Positions 2,326 to 46,940 of a DNA stretch of 64,000 nucleotides are shown here, in pieces. Numbering within the stretch: position 1 is the first letter of the stretch; every line of letters starts with the position of its first letter. A model generated the notes under the pieces. The model was not told the DNA's origin. It searched no databases and worked only from the letters and a program-made list of their open reading frames with translations. The DNA comes from Acidocella aquatica (GTDB lineage Bacteria; Pseudomonadota; Alphaproteobacteria; Acetobacterales; Acetobacteraceae), in the NCBI RefSeq assembly GCF_030160635.1, contig NZ_BSOS01000041.1:1-64000 (forward strand). Direction: 5' to 3'. Position numbers and translations under genes: made by a program.

Positions 2326-2370
2326 GGTTACGCGCCAAGGTCGTGTCCCCACAGTCCCGGCACCACTCGA

Positions 2371-2472
2371 GTGCGATCGTTTGAGGTTCGCTCAACCGAG
2401 CGAGCCGAAAGCGCGAATCGCCCTCAGAAAAATAGCGAGAGCCTGATCGCACTTAAAGCGGTCAGGCTCTCG
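2371..2472 (-). repeat. Dispersed ~105-bp hairpin repeat, copy A
   Basis: Copy A of a repeat that recurs at 12275–12376 and 28885–28990, here in inverted orientation. Read on the minus strand it has a GC-rich hairpin (arms around AGAGCCTGA and TCAGGCTCT with a loop containing CTTTAAGT), a short T-run, then a conserved ~60-base tail containing the small inverted repeat TTGAG-cgaac-CTCAA and ending at CGATCGC. It fills most of the 305-bp gap between the secretion pore and the CAP-domain gene. I see no gene in the rest of that gap. A 264-bp open frame crossing the repeat is most likely fortuitous. Confidence 0.8.
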
Positions 2473-12165: not shown

Positions 12166-12189
12166 CCACGGTTTGTTCGAGAATAACGG

Positions 12190-12219
12190 CCCCGGCAGGC
12201 AACTGCCGGGGTTTTTTTT
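12190..12219 (+). terminator. Rho-independent terminator of the OmpA-like gene
   Basis: The arms CCCCGGCAG and CTGCCGGGG enclose a GCAA loop and are followed by eight T on the plus strand, 25 bp past the stop codon of the porin gene. Confidence 0.93.
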
Positions 12220-12240
12220 ATTCAGCAGGCTGGCGCCGGA

Positions 12241-12273
12241 CAAAAAAAGCCCCGGCAGTTGCCCGCCGGGGCT
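12241..12273 (-). terminator. Rho-independent terminator facing the lipoprotein gene
   Basis: The arms AGCCCCGGC and GCCGGGGCT enclose an 8-base loop. Seven A precede it on the plus strand, which is a U-run when read on the minus strand, so it stops transcripts arriving from the lipoprotein gene at 12467–13045. It shares the CCCCGGC core with the porin terminator and lies back-to-back with it. Confidence 0.85.
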
Positions 12274-12274
12274 T

Positions 12275-12376
12275 AGAGCCTGATCGCTTTAGGTGCGATC
12301 AGGCTCTAGCGGTTTTTCTGAGGGCGATTCACGCTTTCGGCTCGCTCGGTTGAGCGAACCTCAAACGATCGCGCTT
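12275..12376 (+). repeat. Dispersed ~105-bp hairpin repeat, copy B
   Basis: This is the plus-orientation copy of the repeat also found at 2371–2472 (inverted) and 28885–28990. The hairpin arms AGAGCCTGATCGC and GCGATCAGGCTCT enclose TTTAGGT, followed after AGCGG by five T. The conserved tail then holds the small inverted repeat TTGAG-cgaac-CTCAA and ends at CGATCGC. It lies between two convergent genes that already have their own terminators, so termination alone does not explain its presence. Confidence 0.85.
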
Positions 12377-12420
12377 AACTTATATTCTGGCGCTACCAGA
12401 ACCGCTGTGACCTGCCTTTT

Positions 12421-25426: not shown

Positions 25427-28400
25427 GTGAAGCATTTCAAACGCCTTCTGGTCGCCAACCGGTCTGAAATCGCCATTCGCGTCATGCGCGCGGCGGCTGA
25501 GCTTGGCATTCAGACCATCGCCATCTATCCGGAGCATGACAAACTCTCTCTGCACCGGTTCAAGGCGGACGAGGCGTATCTGATCGGCCGCGGCATGGGC
25601 CCCATAGAGGCCTATCTCTCCATTGAGGAAGTCATCCGCGTCGCCAAACAGGCCAATGCCGATGCCATCCACCCCGGCTATGGCTTTCTCTCCGAAAACC
25701 CCGATTTCGCCGACGCCTGCGCCGCCGAGGGCATTGTCTTCATCGGCCCCTCGCCGGACACCATGCGCCGCCTCGGCAACAAGGTCGCCGCCCGCAACCT
25801 CGCCATCTCTGTCGGCGTGCCGGTCATGCCCGCCACCAACCCGCTGCCCGGCGACGCGGCGGAGATCAAACGTCTGGCCGCTGAAGTCGGCTACCCGGTC
25901 ATGCTTAAGGCCTCCTGGGGCGGCGGCGGCCGTGGCATGCGCCCCATCGAGTCCGAGGACACCCTGCTGGAATCCGTCCAGGCCGCCCGGCGCGAGGCCA
26001 AGGCCGCCTTCGGCAACGATGAAGTCTATCTGGAAAAACTCGTCCGCCGCGCCCGCCATGTCGAGGTCCAGCTCCTGGGCGATTCCCACGGCAACCTCGT
26101 CCACCTTTTCGAGCGTGACTGCTCCATCCAGCGCCGCCACCAAAAGGTCATCGAGCGCGCCCCGGCCCCCTATCTGAACGAGTCCGAACGGGCCGAAATC
26201 TGCAACGCCGCACTCGCCATCGGCCGCGCCACCCAATACTGCAACGCCGGCACCGTCGAATTCCTGATGGATATGGACACCGGCAAGTTCTACTTCATCG
26301 AGGTCAACCCGCGCGTCCAGGTCGAGCACACCGTCACCGAGGTCGTCACCGGCATCGACATCGTCAAGGCCCAGATCCACATCGCCGAGGGCGGCCATAT
26401 CGGCAACCTGCCCGAAACCGGCGTGCCCGAGCAGCAAAACATCCACCTTAGCGGCCATGCCCTGCAATGCCGCATCACCACAGAGAACCCCGAGAACAAT
26501 TTCATCCCCGACTACGGCCGCATCACCGCCTATCGCGGCGCTTTTGGCTTTGGCATCCGCGCGGACGGCGGCACCGCCTACGCCGGCGCGATCGTCACCC
26601 GGTTTTATGACGCCCTGCTCGAAAAGGTCACCGCCTGGGCGCCAACACCCGAGGAAGCCGTCGCCCGCATGGACCGCGCCCTGCGCGAATACCGCATCCG
26701 CGGCGTCGCCACCAACCTCACCTTCCTCGAGGCCCTGCTCAACCACCCGGATTTCATCGCCAACCGCTACACCACCCGCTTTATCGACAACACGCCAGAG
26801 CTCTTCCAGGTCCGCAAGCGCCGCGACCGCGCGACCAAACTGTTGCGCTACATCGCCGACGTTACCGTTAACGGCCACCCCGAAACCCGCGGCAAGCCGC
26901 TGCCGGCCGCCCACGCCCGCACCCCCGAGGCCCCACGCTTCGGCAACGAGCGCGCCGATGGCACCAAACAAATCCTCGACCAGCGCGGCCCGATGGGCTT
27001 CTCCAAATGGATGCGCGAACAAAAGCGCGCCCTGGTGACCGACACCACCATGCGCGACGCCCACCAGTCGCTGCTCGCCACGCGCATGCGCTCCTACGAC
27101 ATCATAACCGCCGCCAAGGCCTACTCGGTCGCCCTGCCGCAGCTCTTCTCGCTGGAATGCTGGGGCGGCGCCACTTTCGATGTCTCCATGCGCTTCCTGC
27201 AGGAAGGCCCGTGGGAGCGCCTGCGCGGCATCCGCGAGCGCACCCCCAACCTGCTGCTGCAAATGCTGCTGCGCGGCGCCAATGGCGTCGGCTACACAAA
27301 CTACCCCGATAACGTCGTCAAATTCTTCGTCAAACAGGCGGCCGAAGGCGGCATCGACCTGTTCCGCGTGTTTGACTGCCTGAACTGGGTGGAGAACATG
27401 CGCGTCGCGATTGACGCTGTGGTGGAATCGGGCAAGCTGGCCGAAGGCGCGCTCTGCTACACCGGCGACATCCTCGACCCCGCCCGCGCCAAATACTCCC
27501 TCAACTACTACGTTGACCTCGCCAAACAGCTTGAGGCCGCGGGCTGCCATATCCTCGCGATCAAGGACATGGCCGGCCTGCTCAAACCCGCCGCCGCCAG
27601 CGTGCTGGTCAAGGCCCTGAAGGAAAACGTGGGCCTGCCGATCCACCTGCACACGCATGACACCTCCGGCATTTCCGGCGCCACCGTCTTCGCCGCCGTC
27701 ACCGCCGGGGTGGACGCCTTCGACGCCGCGATGGACCCGATGTCCGGCCTCACCTCGCAGCCTTGCCTTGGCTCGCTGGTTGAAGCCCTGCGCCACACCG
27801 AGCGCGACACCGGCCTCGACCCCGACGCCATCCGCCGCATGAGCTTCTACTGGGAGGCCGTGCGCGGCCAGTACGCCGCCTTTGAGAGCGACCTGCAATC
27901 AGGCGCCTCGGAGGTCTACCTGCACGAAATGCCTGGCGGCCAGTTCACCAACCTGCGTGAACAAGCCCGCTCGCTCGGCCTGGAGACCCGCTGGCACGAG
28001 GTCGCCCGCGCCTACCGCGACGCCAACGACCTCTTTGGCGACATCGTGAAGGTCACCCCCTCCTCGAAAGTGGTGGGCGACATGGCGCTGATGATGGTCA
28101 GCCAAAATCTCTCGGCCAGGGATGTCGCCGACCCGGCTCGGGAAATCTCCTTCCCGCAATCCGTCGTCGAAATGTTGCATGGCGACCTCGGCCAGCCCCC
28201 CGGCGGCTGGCCCGAAGCCCTGCAAAAAAAGGTGCTCAAAGGCAAAGCCCCCATCACCGTGCGCCCCGGCTCGCTCATCCCCGCGGCCGACATCGAGGCC
28301 GTGCGCAAAACCGCGGCCGAGCGCTGCGGGATCGAGTTCAACGACGAGATCCTCGCCTCCTACCTGATGTACCCGGAGGTCTTCACCAACTTCAACGCCT

Positions 28401-28870
28401 CCATGCGCACCTACGGCCCGGTCTCCGTGCTGCCCACGCCGGTCTATTTCTACGGCATGAAGCCGGGGGACGAGATTTCGGTCACCCTGGAGGCCGGCAA
28501 AACCATGATCGTCAGCCTGCAAACCCTGGGCGACACCGACGAGGACGGCAACGTGCGCGTCTTCTTCGAGCTCAACGGCCAGCCCCGCGTCATCAGCGTG
28601 CCCAACCGCAACGCCACCGCCGCGCGCCCCGCTCGCCGCAAGGCGGACGATTCCGACCCCAAACAGCTCGGCGCCCCCATGCCAGGCTCCATCGCCGCCA
28701 TCCTCGTGCGCGAAGATCAGAGCGTGGCCCAGGGCGAACCCCTGCTGGCCATCGAGGCCATGAAAATGGAAGCCCAGCTCACCGCCCCGCGTGAAGGGGT
28801 TATCAAATCCATCCTGGTGCGCCCCGGCGAACAGGTGGACGCCAAAGACCTGCTGATCGAATTCGTGTAG
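25427..28870 (+). CDS. pyc: Pyruvate carboxylase
   Basis: 1147 residues, a full single-chain enzyme making oxaloacetate from pyruvate and bicarbonate. Biotin-carboxylase domain ~1–455 (KASWGGGGRGMRPIE ATP loop; EVNPRVQVEHTVTEVVTG). Carboxyltransferase ~530–810 (LVTDTTMRDAHQSLLATRM; metal-site HLHTHDTSG). Biotin carrier at the C-terminus with AIEAMKMEAQL, the Lys of MKM being biotinylated. The start is GTG with GGAGA about 9 bp upstream. It stands alone, and repeat copy C forms a terminator-like hairpin right after it. It supplies anaplerotic oxaloacetate alongside the pyruvate kinase made in the same window. Confidence 0.97.
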   Translation: MKHFKRLLVANRSEIAIRVMRAAAELGIQTIAIYPEHDKLSLHRFKADEAYLIGRGMGPIEAYLSIEEVIRVAKQANADAIHPGYGFLSENPDFADACAAEGIVFIGPSPDTMRRLGNKVAARNLAISVGVPVMPATNPLPGDAAEIKRLAAEVGYPVMLKASWGGGGRGMRPIESEDTLLESVQAARREAKAAFGNDEVYLEKLVRRARHVEVQLLGDSHGNLVHLFERDCSIQRRHQKVIERAPAPYLNESERAEICNAALAIGRATQYCNAGTVEFLMDMDTGKFYFIEVNPRVQVEHTVTEVVTGIDIVKAQIHIAEGGHIGNLPETGVPEQQNIHLSGHALQCRITTENPENNFIPDYGRITAYRGAFGFGIRADGGTAYAGAIVTRFYDALLEKVTAWAPTPEEAVARMDRALREYRIRGVATNLTFLEALLNHPDFIANRYTTRFIDNTPELFQVRKRRDRATKLLRYIADVTVNGHPETRGKPLPAAHARTPEAPRFGNERADGTKQILDQRGPMGFSKWMREQKRALVTDTTMRDAHQSLLATRMRSYDIITAAKAYSVALPQLFSLECWGGATFDVSMRFLQEGPWERLRGIRERTPNLLLQMLLRGANGVGYTNYPDNVVKFFVKQAAEGGIDLFRVFDCLNWVENMRVAIDAVVESGKLAEGALCYTGDILDPARAKYSLNYYVDLAKQLEAAGCHILAIKDMAGLLKPAAASVLVKALKENVGLPIHLHTHDTSGISGATVFAAVTAGVDAFDAAMDPMSGLTSQPCLGSLVEALRHTERDTGLDPDAIRRMSFYWEAVRGQYAAFESDLQSGASEVYLHEMPGGQFTNLREQARSLGLETRWHEVARAYRDANDLFGDIVKVTPSSKVVGDMALMMVSQNLSARDVADPAREISFPQSVVEMLHGDLGQPPGGWPEALQKKVLKGKAPITVRPGSLIPAADIEAVRKTAAERCGIEFNDEILASYLMYPEVFTNFNASMRTYGPVSVLPTPVYFYGMKPGDEISVTLEAGKTMIVSLQTLGDTDEDGNVRVFFELNGQPRVISVPNRNATAARPARRKADDSDPKQLGAPMPGSIAAILVREDQSVAQGEPLLAIEAMKMEAQLTAPREGVIKSILVRPGEQVDAKDLLIEFV

Positions 28871-28884
28871 CCCCGGATATCGCT

Positions 28885-28990
28885 CCAGGGCCTGATCGCT
28901 TTAAATGCGATCAGGCCCTGGCCATTTTTCGGATGGCGATTCACGCGTTCGGCTTGCTTGATTGAGCGAACCTCAAACGATCGCGCTTTA
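28885..28990 (+). repeat. Dispersed ~105-bp hairpin repeat, copy C
   Basis: Plus-orientation copy beginning 14 bp past the pyc stop. Arms CCAGGGCCTGATCGC and GCGATCAGGCCCTGG close over TTTAAAT and are followed by CCATTTTT. The arm has changed from AGAGCC (copies A, B) to AGGGCC with the matching change on the other side, so pairing is kept. The conserved tail with TTGAG-cgaac-CTCAA then runs into the end of the convergent LysR gene. In this position it can serve as the pyc terminator. Confidence 0.85.
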
Positions 28991-29890
28991 CCCAAAGAAC
29001 CCAGGGCTTTGCGCCAGCTCCGTGGTGATGAAGGCGGCGGCAGCGCGCACATGCGCGGATTTGCGGTTGTCTTCATGGATATGCATGAAGAACGAGCGTT
29101 TCAGCGAGATCTCCTCCGCCAGCACGGGCACCAGCCCCGGATGCAGCCGGGCGATGAACGCCGGCAGCACGCAAAGCCCGCTTCCGGCCGCGGTGGCATA
29201 GGCCTGGGCGGTGAGGTTGGTGCTGCGGATGCGCGCGCTGATCCCGGGGCCGATGCTGCTGAGGTAGTTCAGCTCCGGCGTGAACAGCATGTCCTCGATA
29301 TAGCCGACAAATCCGTGGCGGGAGAGGTCGGCGGGGCTGGTGATCGGCGGTTGCGCCGCGAGGTAGTCGCCTGAGGCATATATATGCAGCCGGTAATCGG
29401 TCAGGCGGCGCGAGACGACGCGGGCATGTTCCGGCGAGGTGAGGCTGATGCCGATATCCGCCTCGCGTTTGGAGAGGCTGAACACCCGCGCGGTGGCCAA
29501 CAGCTCGATTTCCAGTTTGGGATGCAGCGCGGCCAGCTTGTGGATACGCGGGGCGAGAAACGCGGTGCCGAAACCATCCGGCGCGCCGATGCGGATGGTG
29601 CCCGAGACCGCCGGATTTTCGCTCTCCATCGAGGCGGCCTGCAGATAGCTGGCTTCCATGGTCTCGGCGATGGGCCGCAATTGCTCCCCGCTCGCGGTCA
29701 AATCGTAACCAAGGTTGCTGCGGTAGAATATCCGCGTGGTCAGACGTTCCTCCAGCCGCTGGATGTGCCGGGCGACAGTGGTGTGGTCGGTTCCCAGCGC
29801 CTCCGCCGCGGCCGAGAGCGTGCCGGTGCGCGCCACGGCCAGAAAATGCCGCAAATCATCCCAATTCTGCGCGCGTTTACGTCCGGCCAT
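28988..29890 (-). CDS. LysR-family transcriptional regulator
   Basis: 300 residues. The N-terminal winged helix-turn-helix (about 10–70) reads LRHFLAVARTGTLSAAAEAL, then TTVARHIQRLEERL. The rest is a LysR substrate-binding domain (about 95–295). It is divergent from the valine-degradation operon starting at 30016, with a dyad in the gap, so it is the likely activator or repressor of that operon. The last bases of the gene touch repeat copy C. Confidence 0.9.
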   Translation of the reverse strand: MAGRKRAQNWDDLRHFLAVARTGTLSAAAEALGTDHTTVARHIQRLEERLTTRIFYRSNLGYDLTASGEQLRPIAETMEASYLQAASMESENPAVSGTIRIGAPDGFGTAFLAPRIHKLAALHPKLEIELLATARVFSLSKREADIGISLTSPEHARVVSRRLTDYRLHIYASGDYLAAQPPITSPADLSRHGFVGYIEDMLFTPELNYLSSIGPGISARIRSTNLTAQAYATAAGSGLCVLPAFIARLHPGLVPVLAEEISLKRSFFMHIHEDNRKSAHVRAAAAFITTELAQSPGFFG

Positions 29891-33734: not shown

Positions 33735-34982
33735 ATGCAGCAAGTTGAACCAGGCAATGTGGCCTGGGTGCTGATGTGCACGATTCTGGTGCTGTTGATG
33801 ACAATACCAGGTCTGGCGCTGTTTTATGCCGGAATGGTTCGGAAGAAGAACGTTCTCGCGATCATGATGCAGTCGTTCATGCTCTGCGCGGTGATGACCG
33901 TGTTGTGGATGATTGTTGGCTATTCACTGGTTTTCACCAATGGTAACGCTTTCATCGGTGATTTTTCGCGTGTGTTCCTGCAGGGGCTTGCTGCGAACTG
34001 GGACAAGCCCTTCACCCTCGCCGCGGGAACGCCCTACGCCACGCAGACGACAATCCCCGAGAGCGTGTTCCTGATGTTCCAGATGAGCTTCGCCATCATC
34101 ACCCCCGCGGTGGTGACCGGCAGTTGCGCGGATCGCATGAAGTTCTCCGCGCTGCTGCTGTTTTTCACCATGTGGTCGATATTGGTTTATGCGCCGCTGG
34201 CGCATTGGGTGTGGGCGCCCACAGGCTGGCTCGCCAAAATGGGCATCGCGGATTTTGCGGGCGGTACGGTGGTTGAAATCAACTGCGGTGTCACCGGGCT
34301 GATCTGTGCGCTCATGCTGGGTAAGCGCCTGGGCTACGGGCAGGAGAACATGGCGCCCTGGAACCTCAGCTACGCTGTTATTGGCGCCTCGCTGCTCTGG
34401 GTTGGCTGGATGGGCTTTAACTCCGGCGGCGCCATGGGCGCCAACGGCCGCGCCGGGATGGCGGTGCTGGTGACCCAGATTGCCGCCGCCGCCGCCACTT
34501 TGTCCTGGATTTTCGTCGAATGGGCGCTGCGTGGCAAACCTTCGGTTTTGGGCGCCATCTCCGGCGCCGTGGCCGGGCTGGTGGCGATTACCCCGGCAGC
34601 CGGGTTCGTGCTGCCGGGCCCGGCACTGGCCATCGGCCTGGCGGCGGGGTTTGTGTGTTTCTGGACCGCCACCTCGTTGAAATCCGCCTTGGGGTATGAT
34701 GACAGCCTCGATGCCTTTGGCGTGCATGGCATCGCCGGAATGATTGGCACGCTGGCCACCGGCTGGTTTGCTTTTGGCCCCCTTTCGGCCACCCTGGCGG
34801 CGCCTGGCGGTGTGGCGTTGTTGAAGGTTCAGGCCGTGGGCGTGTTGGCCACTGTTGTTTATTGCGCGGCGATGAGCTGGGTGCTGCTCAAAATCACCGA
34901 TATGGTGGTTGGGTTGCGGGTGACGCGGGAAGAAGAACGCGAAGGGTTGGATATTGTGCTGCATGGCGAACAATTGTTTTAG
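33735..34982 (+). CDS. amt: Ammonium transporter (Amt/Mep family), twin-His variant with Glu
   Basis: 415 residues, eleven membrane segments. Conserved parts: ALFYAGMVRKKNVL at helix 1–2, VVTGSCADRMKF, the ADFAGGTVV segment and DAFGVHGIAGMIGT. In AmtB the pore holds two facing His; here the first is Glu (residue 181, codon 34275–34277: TVV-E-INCG), while the second His (in GVHGIAG) is kept. The same His-to-Glu change marks fungal Mep1/Mep3 transporters. GAGGGA lies ~10 bp before the ATG. No glnK gene is adjacent, unlike most bacterial amtB operons. Confidence 0.93.
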   Translation: MQQVEPGNVAWVLMCTILVLLMTIPGLALFYAGMVRKKNVLAIMMQSFMLCAVMTVLWMIVGYSLVFTNGNAFIGDFSRVFLQGLAANWDKPFTLAAGTPYATQTTIPESVFLMFQMSFAIITPAVVTGSCADRMKFSALLLFFTMWSILVYAPLAHWVWAPTGWLAKMGIADFAGGTVVEINCGVTGLICALMLGKRLGYGQENMAPWNLSYAVIGASLLWVGWMGFNSGGAMGANGRAGMAVLVTQIAAAAATLSWIFVEWALRGKPSVLGAISGAVAGLVAITPAAGFVLPGPALAIGLAAGFVCFWTATSLKSALGYDDSLDAFGVHGIAGMIGTLATGWFAFGPLSATLAAPGGVALLKVQAVGVLATVVYCAAMSWVLLKITDMVVGLRVTREEEREGLDIVLHGEQLF

Positions 34983-35009
34983 AATATCCAGCAAATGGCT
35001 GAATATTCT
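34981..35009. terminator. Imperfect hairpin overlapping the amt stop codon
   Basis: AGAATATcCAGC pairs with GCTGaATATTCT across a 5-base loop, with one mismatch. There is no T-run. It may end the amt transcript or meet transcripts from the convergent LacI gene. Confidence 0.4.
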
Positions 35010-35091
35010 AAGCTCGTGTTTGCGCGAGCAATATGCGGTTAGCTTGAACGGCTTACCCATAGCGCCAGCACCACGCGAAGGGGCGCGGCCG

Positions 35092-36141
35092 TTATGTACT
35101 TTCCCGCGCCGCGAGTTCCAGCCCAACATTGACACGCCGCGCCGCCGGGCTGCCGCCCGCGATGCGCGCAAGCAGCATTTCCGCCGCGGTGTGGCCCATG
35201 AGTTTACGTGGTGAGATGATTGTGGTGAGCGACGGCGTGACCAGCGTGCTGACCGGCAGGCCATTGAAGCCGGCGATGGCGATGCGCCCGGGAATTGCGA
35301 TGCCCTCCCGCTGGGCGCGCAGAATGGCGCCAACCGCCATTTCATCACTGGCGAAAAACAGCGCATCAAGCTCCGGGTTGGATTTCAGGATATCTCCAAG
35401 CGCGTTCCAGCCAAGTTGCTGGCTGCCGCCCCCCGGATAATCAAACAGCATATCGCTCGCGATTTTGCTTTCCAGCAGGCGCCGGTGCATGCCATCGTAG
35501 CGCTGTCTCGCGCGATAGTCATCGCGCAGCCTTGTGCCCACGAAGCCGATTTTCCGGTACCCGCGCGAGAGCAAATGTTCGGCCATTTCCATGCCGGCGC
35601 GAACATGCGAGAGGCCGACATTCATGTCGATGCAGCGCGCCCCGTACTCCATCATCTCGACCACCGGCAGCCCGGCATTTTTGAGGATGGTATTGGTGCG
35701 CGGCAGATGCCGAAGGCCCGCGATCATCACGCCGGGCGGCGCCCAGCCGAGCAGGGCCGAAACCAGCTCGGCTTCCCGCTCCAGGTTATAGTCGGTGGTG
35801 CCCAGCAACAACTGGTAGCCGTGCGCCGTCAGCGTTTCCTGCACGCCTTCAATCACCTCGATGAAGACGACGTTCGAGAGAGACGGAACGATGACGGGGA
35901 TAACCTTGGTTTTGGCGGAGGCGAGGGCGCCGGCCATGCGGTTGGGCACATAGCCGAGCTGATCCACCGCCGTGCGAATGCGGCTGCGAAGCGTCTCCGA
36001 GACGCTGTCCGGGCTGTTCAGCGCGCGCGATACAGTAATGGGCGCCACCCGGGCAAGGGTCGCGACATCCGCCAGTGTGACAGCGCCATGGCTGGCGCGG
36101 CGAGCCTCGGTGTTGATGGTTTCAGGCGGGGATTTATCCAA
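35092..36141 (-). CDS. LacI-family transcriptional repressor
   Basis: 349 residues. Helix-turn-helix and hinge at about residues 20–75 (LADVATLARVAPITVSRALN, then LGYVPNRMAGALAS), followed by a periplasmic-binding-protein-like effector domain typical of the GntR/IdnR subgroup. The start is TTG, supported by AAGG 5–6 bp upstream. It is divergent from the ABC importer operon, with two 14-bp palindromes between them. The same palindrome recurs in the ltnD–otnC gap, so it probably controls the whole acid-sugar island in response to the imported compound or a breakdown intermediate. Confidence 0.9.
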   Translation of the reverse strand: MDKSPPETINTEARRASHGAVTLADVATLARVAPITVSRALNSPDSVSETLRSRIRTAVDQLGYVPNRMAGALASAKTKVIPVIVPSLSNVVFIEVIEGVQETLTAHGYQLLLGTTDYNLEREAELVSALLGWAPPGVMIAGLRHLPRTNTILKNAGLPVVEMMEYGARCIDMNVGLSHVRAGMEMAEHLLSRGYRKIGFVGTRLRDDYRARQRYDGMHRRLLESKIASDMLFDYPGGGSQQLGWNALGDILKSNPELDALFFASDEMAVGAILRAQREGIAIPGRIAIAGFNGLPVSTLVTPSLTTIISPRKLMGHTAAEMLLARIAGGSPAARRVNVGLELAAREST

Positions 36142-46732: not shown

Positions 46733-46940
46733 TCCGGCGCCGGTTATCCGGTGGCCGATCGCGCGCGAGGCGCGCCGGGTGCTTCACGTGAAGCTATTGT
46801 GAGAAATTCTCTATAACACACTGTTAGTTCGGTTTAATTTTTTTCTTGCACCCCAATTTGTGCGGGTTTGTGTTGGAAAAGAAATGAATTTGCGGGCAGG
46901 CGGCCCGGGGATGTTCCGGGCCGTTTCCGCTGCGGGGGGT

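Follow-up and report, generated by a model that had tools for sequence, protein, structure and literature searches.

A dispersed repeat of Acidocella is probably a non-autonomous IS630-type MITE that has the stop codon as its niche

A stretch of 64,000 nucleotides from Acidocella aquatica (contig NZ_BSOS01000041.1 of assembly GCF_030160635.1, positions 1 to 64,000; hereafter the window) carries three copies of a short non-coding repeat in which a terminator-like hairpin is followed by a conserved tail, and the locus raises the question whether such a repeat is a signal at the end of transcripts or a small mobile element. Comparison of the copies with the empty sites of sister species, with insertion sequences of the genus and with the neighbouring genes indicates that the repeat is very probably a non-autonomous MITE of the IS630 type with the stop codon as its niche.

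The three copies reported in the initial annotation were all found where it had placed them, to within a few bases, and each of the parts that it described is present: the hairpin, the T-run, a tail of about 60 bases with a second dyad, and the CGATCGC end. Similarity is 93% between copies 1 and 2 and 87% between copies 2 and 3. Copy 2, the subject of this study (12,276-12,375, plus strand), lies between TA dinucleotides at 12,274-12,275 and 12,376-12,377. Its 5' hairpin (12,273-12,309; arms 12,273-12,287 and 12,295-12,309, loop 12,288-12,294) contains the left inverted end and is followed on its 3' side by a terminator-like T-run at 12,313-12,317. The tail domain holds a conserved GATTC (GANTC) site at 12,326-12,330, a second small dyad, TCGCTC-GGTT-GAGCGA, at 12,342-12,357 and the right inverted end at 12,358-12,375, all read on the plus strand; the consensus of this end begins GAGYGCGATCGTTTGAGGT as reverse complement, and in copy 2 it has one C missing (GCGCT, then TAA). 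Copy 1 (2,369-2,469, minus strand, with its limits set between the flanking dinucleotides) has GA instead of TA at both flanks when read on the minus strand, and a base of its hairpin is altered to fit these flanks (CGAGAG / CTCTCG). Copy 3 (28,888-28,988, plus strand) has its hairpin 14 bases beyond the end of a pyruvate carboxylase gene (25,427-28,870, plus strand), and its terminal base and the flanking TA together form the TAA stop (28,988-28,990, minus strand) of a gene for a LysR-type regulator (28,988-29,890, minus strand); the same site is occupied in the sister genomes G010 (L170) and G022 (L158). The recurring peptide RSFEVRS, previously taken to be spurious, is indeed a reverse reading of the 3' end of the repeat (CGATCGTTTGAGGTTCGCTC).

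The consensus of 33 copies reads YTA-GAGCCTGATCGC-TTTAAGT-GCGATCAGGCTCTAGCCG-TTTTT-CTGAGGGCGATTCACGCTTTCGGCTCGCTCGGTTGAGCGAACCTCAAACGATCGCRCTC-TAR, the element itself lying between the TA dinucleotides and having imperfect GAG...CTC inverted ends. The left end GAGCCTGATCGCTTTAAGT and the reversed right end are imperfect inverted repeats; in the terminal inverted repeats, GAGNNYGATCGYTTKARGT, 13 of 19 consensus positions are alike, and with up to two mismatches GAGNNYGATCGYTTKARGT gives 92+92 matches in the own genome vs. 5+4 for the reversed control. The tail had been noted to be conserved beyond the needs of a terminator, and it is explained by its bearing the second of these ends. Compared with its shuffles, the consensus folds much better (z of -5.4 as RNA and -6.6 as DNA), with a first hairpin predicted to be very stable and a second domain predicted to form weak folds in several ways; no Rfam family matched in the window at gathering score. 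Two deviating forms were also observed: a minimal one (L115:962-1015), in which two right ends face each other and form a palindrome of about 54 bp, and an expanded one in which the tail domain alone is repeated in tandem with a period of about 70 bp (L219, L068, L066, L217 and L067).

A profile search of the own genome (G000), with the best 150 of 2016 candidates scored, gave at least 144 model matches at E≤0.1, some of the weaker ones being reverse readings of the same hairpin palindrome, and at least 87 places at ≥60 bits, so that the expectation of very many copies genome-wide was borne out. Within the genus Acidocella, matches at E≤0.01 were found in 12 of 38 genomes, and their numbers range widely (G000 97, G022 60, G002 47, G010 42 and G012 31; G015 and G042 6 each, G048 4, G045 3, G011 and G017 2 each, G008 1). 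The same model (R1) found matches in none of 16 genomes of the same class outside the genus. Across the family, matches at E≤1e-5 among the best 12 candidates per genome came from 3 of 299 genomes, namely the own genome and two with a single weak match. An exact 34-mer of the repeat occurs in nine stretches of public genomes, eight assigned to Acidocella sp. and one to a 'Proteobacteria bacterium', and neither viral contigs, searched with an exact 20-mer, nor plasmids gave a match. From 254 distinct hits a set of 146 distinct full copies (score >55 bits, near-full model coverage) was taken for the analyses below, 72 from the own genome and 74 from other genomes. The repeat therefore has the features of a MITE: a length of about 100 bp, no transposase gene, dozens of copies and a patchy presence within one genus.

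The initial annotation had proposed to look for empty sites and target duplications, and both were found. For 33 of the 54 own copies that were eligible, the two flanks were joined and compared with seven sister genomes, and 12 sites with matches across the junction were read in detail. At three of them (L073, L011 and L026) the duplication is fully clean, with one TA in the empty site and TA on both sides of the occupied one, and these sites are otherwise unchanged, save for a single base at L026, next to the left TA. Six more (L025, L010, L056, L023, L004 and L002) are partly readable, on one side or with local change, and L013, L084 and L088 are unreadable in this respect. A four-base duplication of YTAR in the style of IS5 was ruled out, as the clean empty sites show TA alone. 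A restriction of the copies to identical syntenic positions, which the initial annotation had named as a refutation, is thus not what was found: a dozen sites are empty in sister species, though some others are common to several species, with flanks about 80-97% alike (including that of window copy 3 in G010 and G022). Intact TA remains on the left of 92 of the 146 copies and on the right of 94; Y precedes 89 of these 92 left TAs (116 of 226 for TAs in window gaps), and 86 of the 94 right TAs are followed by R (118 of 226). Not every site is tidy: compared with its ortholog, the second L016 copy departs from a simple insertion, and the site at L190 has no TA (CTCAG/CATCAC). At this last site (L190:1058-1165, in G002) the element is inserted within the last codons of a gene, where two codons replace the last six seen in G000 and G022, and it supplies a TGA stop.

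In order to find an insertion sequence with similar ends, 30 loci (L242-L271) were scanned for TA-anchored inverted ends. An IS630-family element with two copies in G007 (L244:1399-2451; 1053 bp, flanked by TA, ends GAGCTTGATTGGTTTAAAT / GAGCGTGGTTGGTTTTGAT) encodes a transposase that matches the IS630 model NF033545 at 151 bits (cut-off 100) and also PF13358. The 5' end of the MITE agrees with the better end of this IS at 17 of 19 bases in 12 of the 146 copies and at 13 or more in 137, and as a control 2505 TA-anchored 19-mers of the window match the IS end at no more than 11 positions, one of them at 14. The right end of the MITE is less similar (10-14 of 19 in 142 copies, mostly 10-13). Thus the Acidocella IS shares with the repeat the TA target and the inverted ends, and differs from it in its length, its transposase and an interior unrelated to that of the MITE; derivation of the tail from this interior found no support, the score between the two interiors being 32 and that of shuffles up to 35. 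The TA duplication together with the match of the 5' end to IS630-family ends identifies the repeat as an IS630-type MITE, and the empty sites, the duplication, the ends held in common with an IS630-family element and the patchy presence uphold the initial suggestion of a mobile non-autonomous element.

An IS630 transposase acting in trans would have moved the element. A PF13358 transposase is encoded in 27 of 38 genomes of the genus, in 10 of 12 with the MITE and 17 of 26 without it, and its presence alone therefore says little. In the own genome, searches with the end pattern and PF13358 yielded no complete IS630 element with these ends, only fragments and one remnant, and G007, the bearer of the best-matching IS, has no copy of the MITE; the mover is for these reasons a putative one.

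Relative to genes, the 72 own copies comprise 40 in convergent gaps, 12 co-directional in sense and 13 in antisense orientation, three in divergent gaps and four at contig edges, and the 74 copies of relatives are distributed alike (37, 12, 14, 2 and 9); none of the 146 is intragenic. For comparison, 216 TA sites in window gaps divide into 36 convergent, 121 tandem and 59 divergent, so that convergent gaps hold 40 of 68 classed own copies vs. 36 of 216 TA sites, and divergent gaps 3 of 68 vs. 59 of 216. In 39 of the 72 own copies (14 at the left end, 25 at the right) and in 35 of the 74 copies of relatives, the TA and the first base of the element make up the stop codon of a neighbouring gene. 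The window gaps serve as comparison: of their 223 TA sites 26 are in stop codons, and of their 52 YTAR sites 13 (Fisher p 0.0016 for the copies against YTAR). The gene caller was home-made and trained on the window, and could read a truncating insertion as an insertion into a stop codon. The empty sites, found where both flanks are conserved only, guard against this error: in 9 of the 10 sites tested, a positively scored coding frame already had its stop codon at the target TA (the exception is L010; L013 and L084 were left out, as their TA could not be placed). In the empty sites of L056 and L025, this TA is shared by the stop codons of the two convergent genes. Copies of the same layout in six other genera of the family, discussed below, show such a stop in 9 of 17 cases (frame score >12).

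When a genome is GC-rich, some of the non-coding YTAR sites open to insertion are those of TAA and TAG stops, and an insertion at such a TA rebuilds TAG for the gene on either strand, because both ends of the element begin with G. Where a convergent pair of genes shares one TA, both regain a TAG stop. With the stop rebuilt the insertion is close to silent, and copies may persist for this reason. The excess of stop codons may reflect either a preference of the transposase or the survival of harmless insertions. In the open-access literature searched, as far as its texts could be consulted, no description of stop-codon targeting by a bacterial MITE was found.

A different reading would place the repeat among the CIR repeats known from Caulobacter and Brucella, or close to them, as an element associated with CcrM methylation in which GANTC is functional. 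It is possible, though we consider it rather unlikely. As described in part in PMC2229807, CIR repeats are about 110 bp long and intergenic, with two arms and a linker, TA termini and GANTC at a loop; the Acidocella repeat, of about 100 bp, likewise has two inverted-repeat arms with a linker and TA at its ends, none of the 146 copies lies inside a gene, and the RNA fold predicted for the consensus puts GANTC at the loop that ends one of the arms. GATTC is kept in 133 of the 146 full copies, but it is absent from the other 13. The same layout, TAGA-hairpin-TCTAG-T-rich linker-GTGATTCACG-TTCGGC-...-GATCACRCTCTA, was found in six other genera of the family, where GATTCACG is kept across all seven genera and the hairpin sequence is unrelated; the hairpin looks replaced or lost in the copies L284, L289, L290 and L295. 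The pattern GATTCACGNNNTCGGC-(10-40)-GATCRCNCTCTA was present in 8 of 299 family genomes and 7 of 102 genera, with none for the reversed control. Against membership in CIR, the same pattern found the own genome alone among 385 of the class, and the model finds nothing beyond the genus in the 16 genomes of the class mentioned above. CIR repeats are also listed in the consulted part of PMC2229807 without inverted ends and with the target duplication given as unknown, the comparison being one of descriptions.

The possibility of a domesticated transcription terminator, in which hairpin and T-run would end upstream transcripts and selection would keep both the copies and their pairing, appears improbable. 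A hairpin of ≤-15 kcal/mol together with TTTT is present in 123 of the 146 copies, which lie at gene 3' ends, several at the same site across species. The 5' arm forms a paired palindrome in which both sides change together: pairs 1-37 to 5-33 and 8-30 show strong covariation across copies, with changes on both sides in six pairs (A1), as high in none of 500 shuffles. However, co-directional copies are as often antisense as sense to their neighbours in the own genome as well as in relatives, and orientation relative to genes thus gives no support for retention as a terminator or for a role at RNA ends; the stop codon used lies at the tail end in 47 cases and at the hairpin end in 28 (p 0.037). 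In 13 orthologous comparisons, which are not independent, the T-run linker is the most divergent part (19 of 128 positions), and the hairpin (42 of 479) has no fewer differences than the flanks (85 of 1021 and 85 of 1069). Inner stem pairs lack a clear preference for G-U over A-C mismatches. The asymmetry of U-G vs. C-A at pair 2-36 (32 vs. 1) was discarded as proof of selection at the RNA level, as inner pairs show no clear asymmetry of this kind; it is uninformative because T at this position stems from the TA target, and C-A is unexpected under copying of DNA too. Copy 2 itself directly follows a large palindrome with T-runs on both strands (12,189-12,272), which is an ordinary two-way terminator after an OmpA-like gene, and the copy is therefore not needed there as a terminator.

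For the pairing of the hairpin we tentatively favour a cause at the level of DNA: one arm would be copied onto the other by fold-back in the course of replication or transposition. Selection for an RNA terminator seems to us the less likely cause. The lengthened 5' arm of L056, which lies beside the target TA and agrees with the internal arm over eight bases past GAG, fits such copying, as does the single base at L026, which beside the TA is G in the empty sites and C when occupied, matching an internal G. The hairpin and T-run of the MITE would still probably stop transcription that arrives from the sense side.

A REP/REPIN-type element moved by a RAYT (Y1) transposase was rejected as highly implausible: the repeat is palindromic, extragenic and of high copy number, and weak Y1_Tnp matches occur in the own genome and G010, but Y1_Tnp is found in only 5 of 38 genomes of the genus, being absent from the copy-rich G002, G012 and G022 and present in the copy-free G009, G020 and G053, and a TA duplication and long inverted ends are, to our knowledge, not features of RAYT elements.

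The repeat of Acidocella is a new family of IS630-type MITEs, nearest in kind to the RUP element of pneumococcus. RUP is described in the parts of the literature used here as about 107 bp long, with about 100 copies, IS630-Spn1-like inverted ends and TA insertion sites (PMC2229807), and as over-represented between convergent genes (PMC3049150). It differs in sequence, in being AT-rich and in its Gram-positive host, and its ends are described as pairing with each other, whereas the Acidocella MITE consists of two arms and a linker. A preference for stop codons is absent from the portions of both descriptions consulted (PMC2229807, PMC3049150). The SPRITE repeat also has, according to the sections consulted, a terminator-like stem with a T-rich tract, a strong enrichment in convergent gaps and a position near gene 3' ends; its ends are given as AAAA/TTTT only, and in contrast to the Acidocella MITE, for which both were found, its target duplication is not established and its IS partner not found (PMC3049150). 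MITEPsy1 of Pseudomonas syringae, as partly described in PMC3189936, is 100 bp long with 18-bp inverted ends and inserts at CTAG or YTAA, but it duplicates four bases and is linked to the IS5 family, where the Acidocella MITE duplicates TA only and has IS630-like ends.

Several other repeats were observed. A second dispersed palindromic repeat, TATGTTTTACGATCAATTTCATYGGTTTAG, occurs near TAGAG ends in the own genome (L013, L051, L074, L028 and others) and in many copies in sister genomes, and may represent another MITE family of this type. A third, CGTGAGGGAAGATATTTCGATG..., adjoins MITE copies at L028, L082, L062 and L120, and a fourth, CCCTGCGTCATTCATGACGCAGGG with its flanks (about 100 bp), was seen in the L021 flank, at many places in G010 and in G002. 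Within the window, positions 46,777-46,892 hold another dispersed repeat, whose 116 bases agree at 84% with the flank of the own-genome MITE copy L093 (contig C90), and positions 34,979-35,050, between genes at 33,735-34,982 (plus strand) and 35,092-36,141 (minus strand), are 75% like a repeat in the L029 flank.

The finding suggests how a repeat can multiply to dozens of copies where a genome is rich in GC and densely packed with genes, namely by targeting the stop codon and then repaying it, and it offers a testable reason why small bacterial repeats often sit between convergent genes. For annotation it means that the 3' ends of genes in these genomes often take their stop from the repeat, and that frames read across it are spurious. 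A wider reading, which we put forward tentatively and hold to be unlikely as a whole, is that this element and the CIR repeats belong together as an ancient group of alphaproteobacterial IS630-type MITEs with a specialisation for stop codons, whose G-first ends would regenerate TAG on either strand, so that adjacent or overlapping convergent genes could be split without protein change, and in which the GATTC-bearing 3' domain would be conserved while the 5' hairpin is repeatedly rewritten by fold-back copying. Such rewriting would leave the hairpin unrelated in sequence between genera and nevertheless paired. The mobility of CIR repeats is unexplained in the part of PMC2229807 consulted, and the Acidocella element offers a route to this question.
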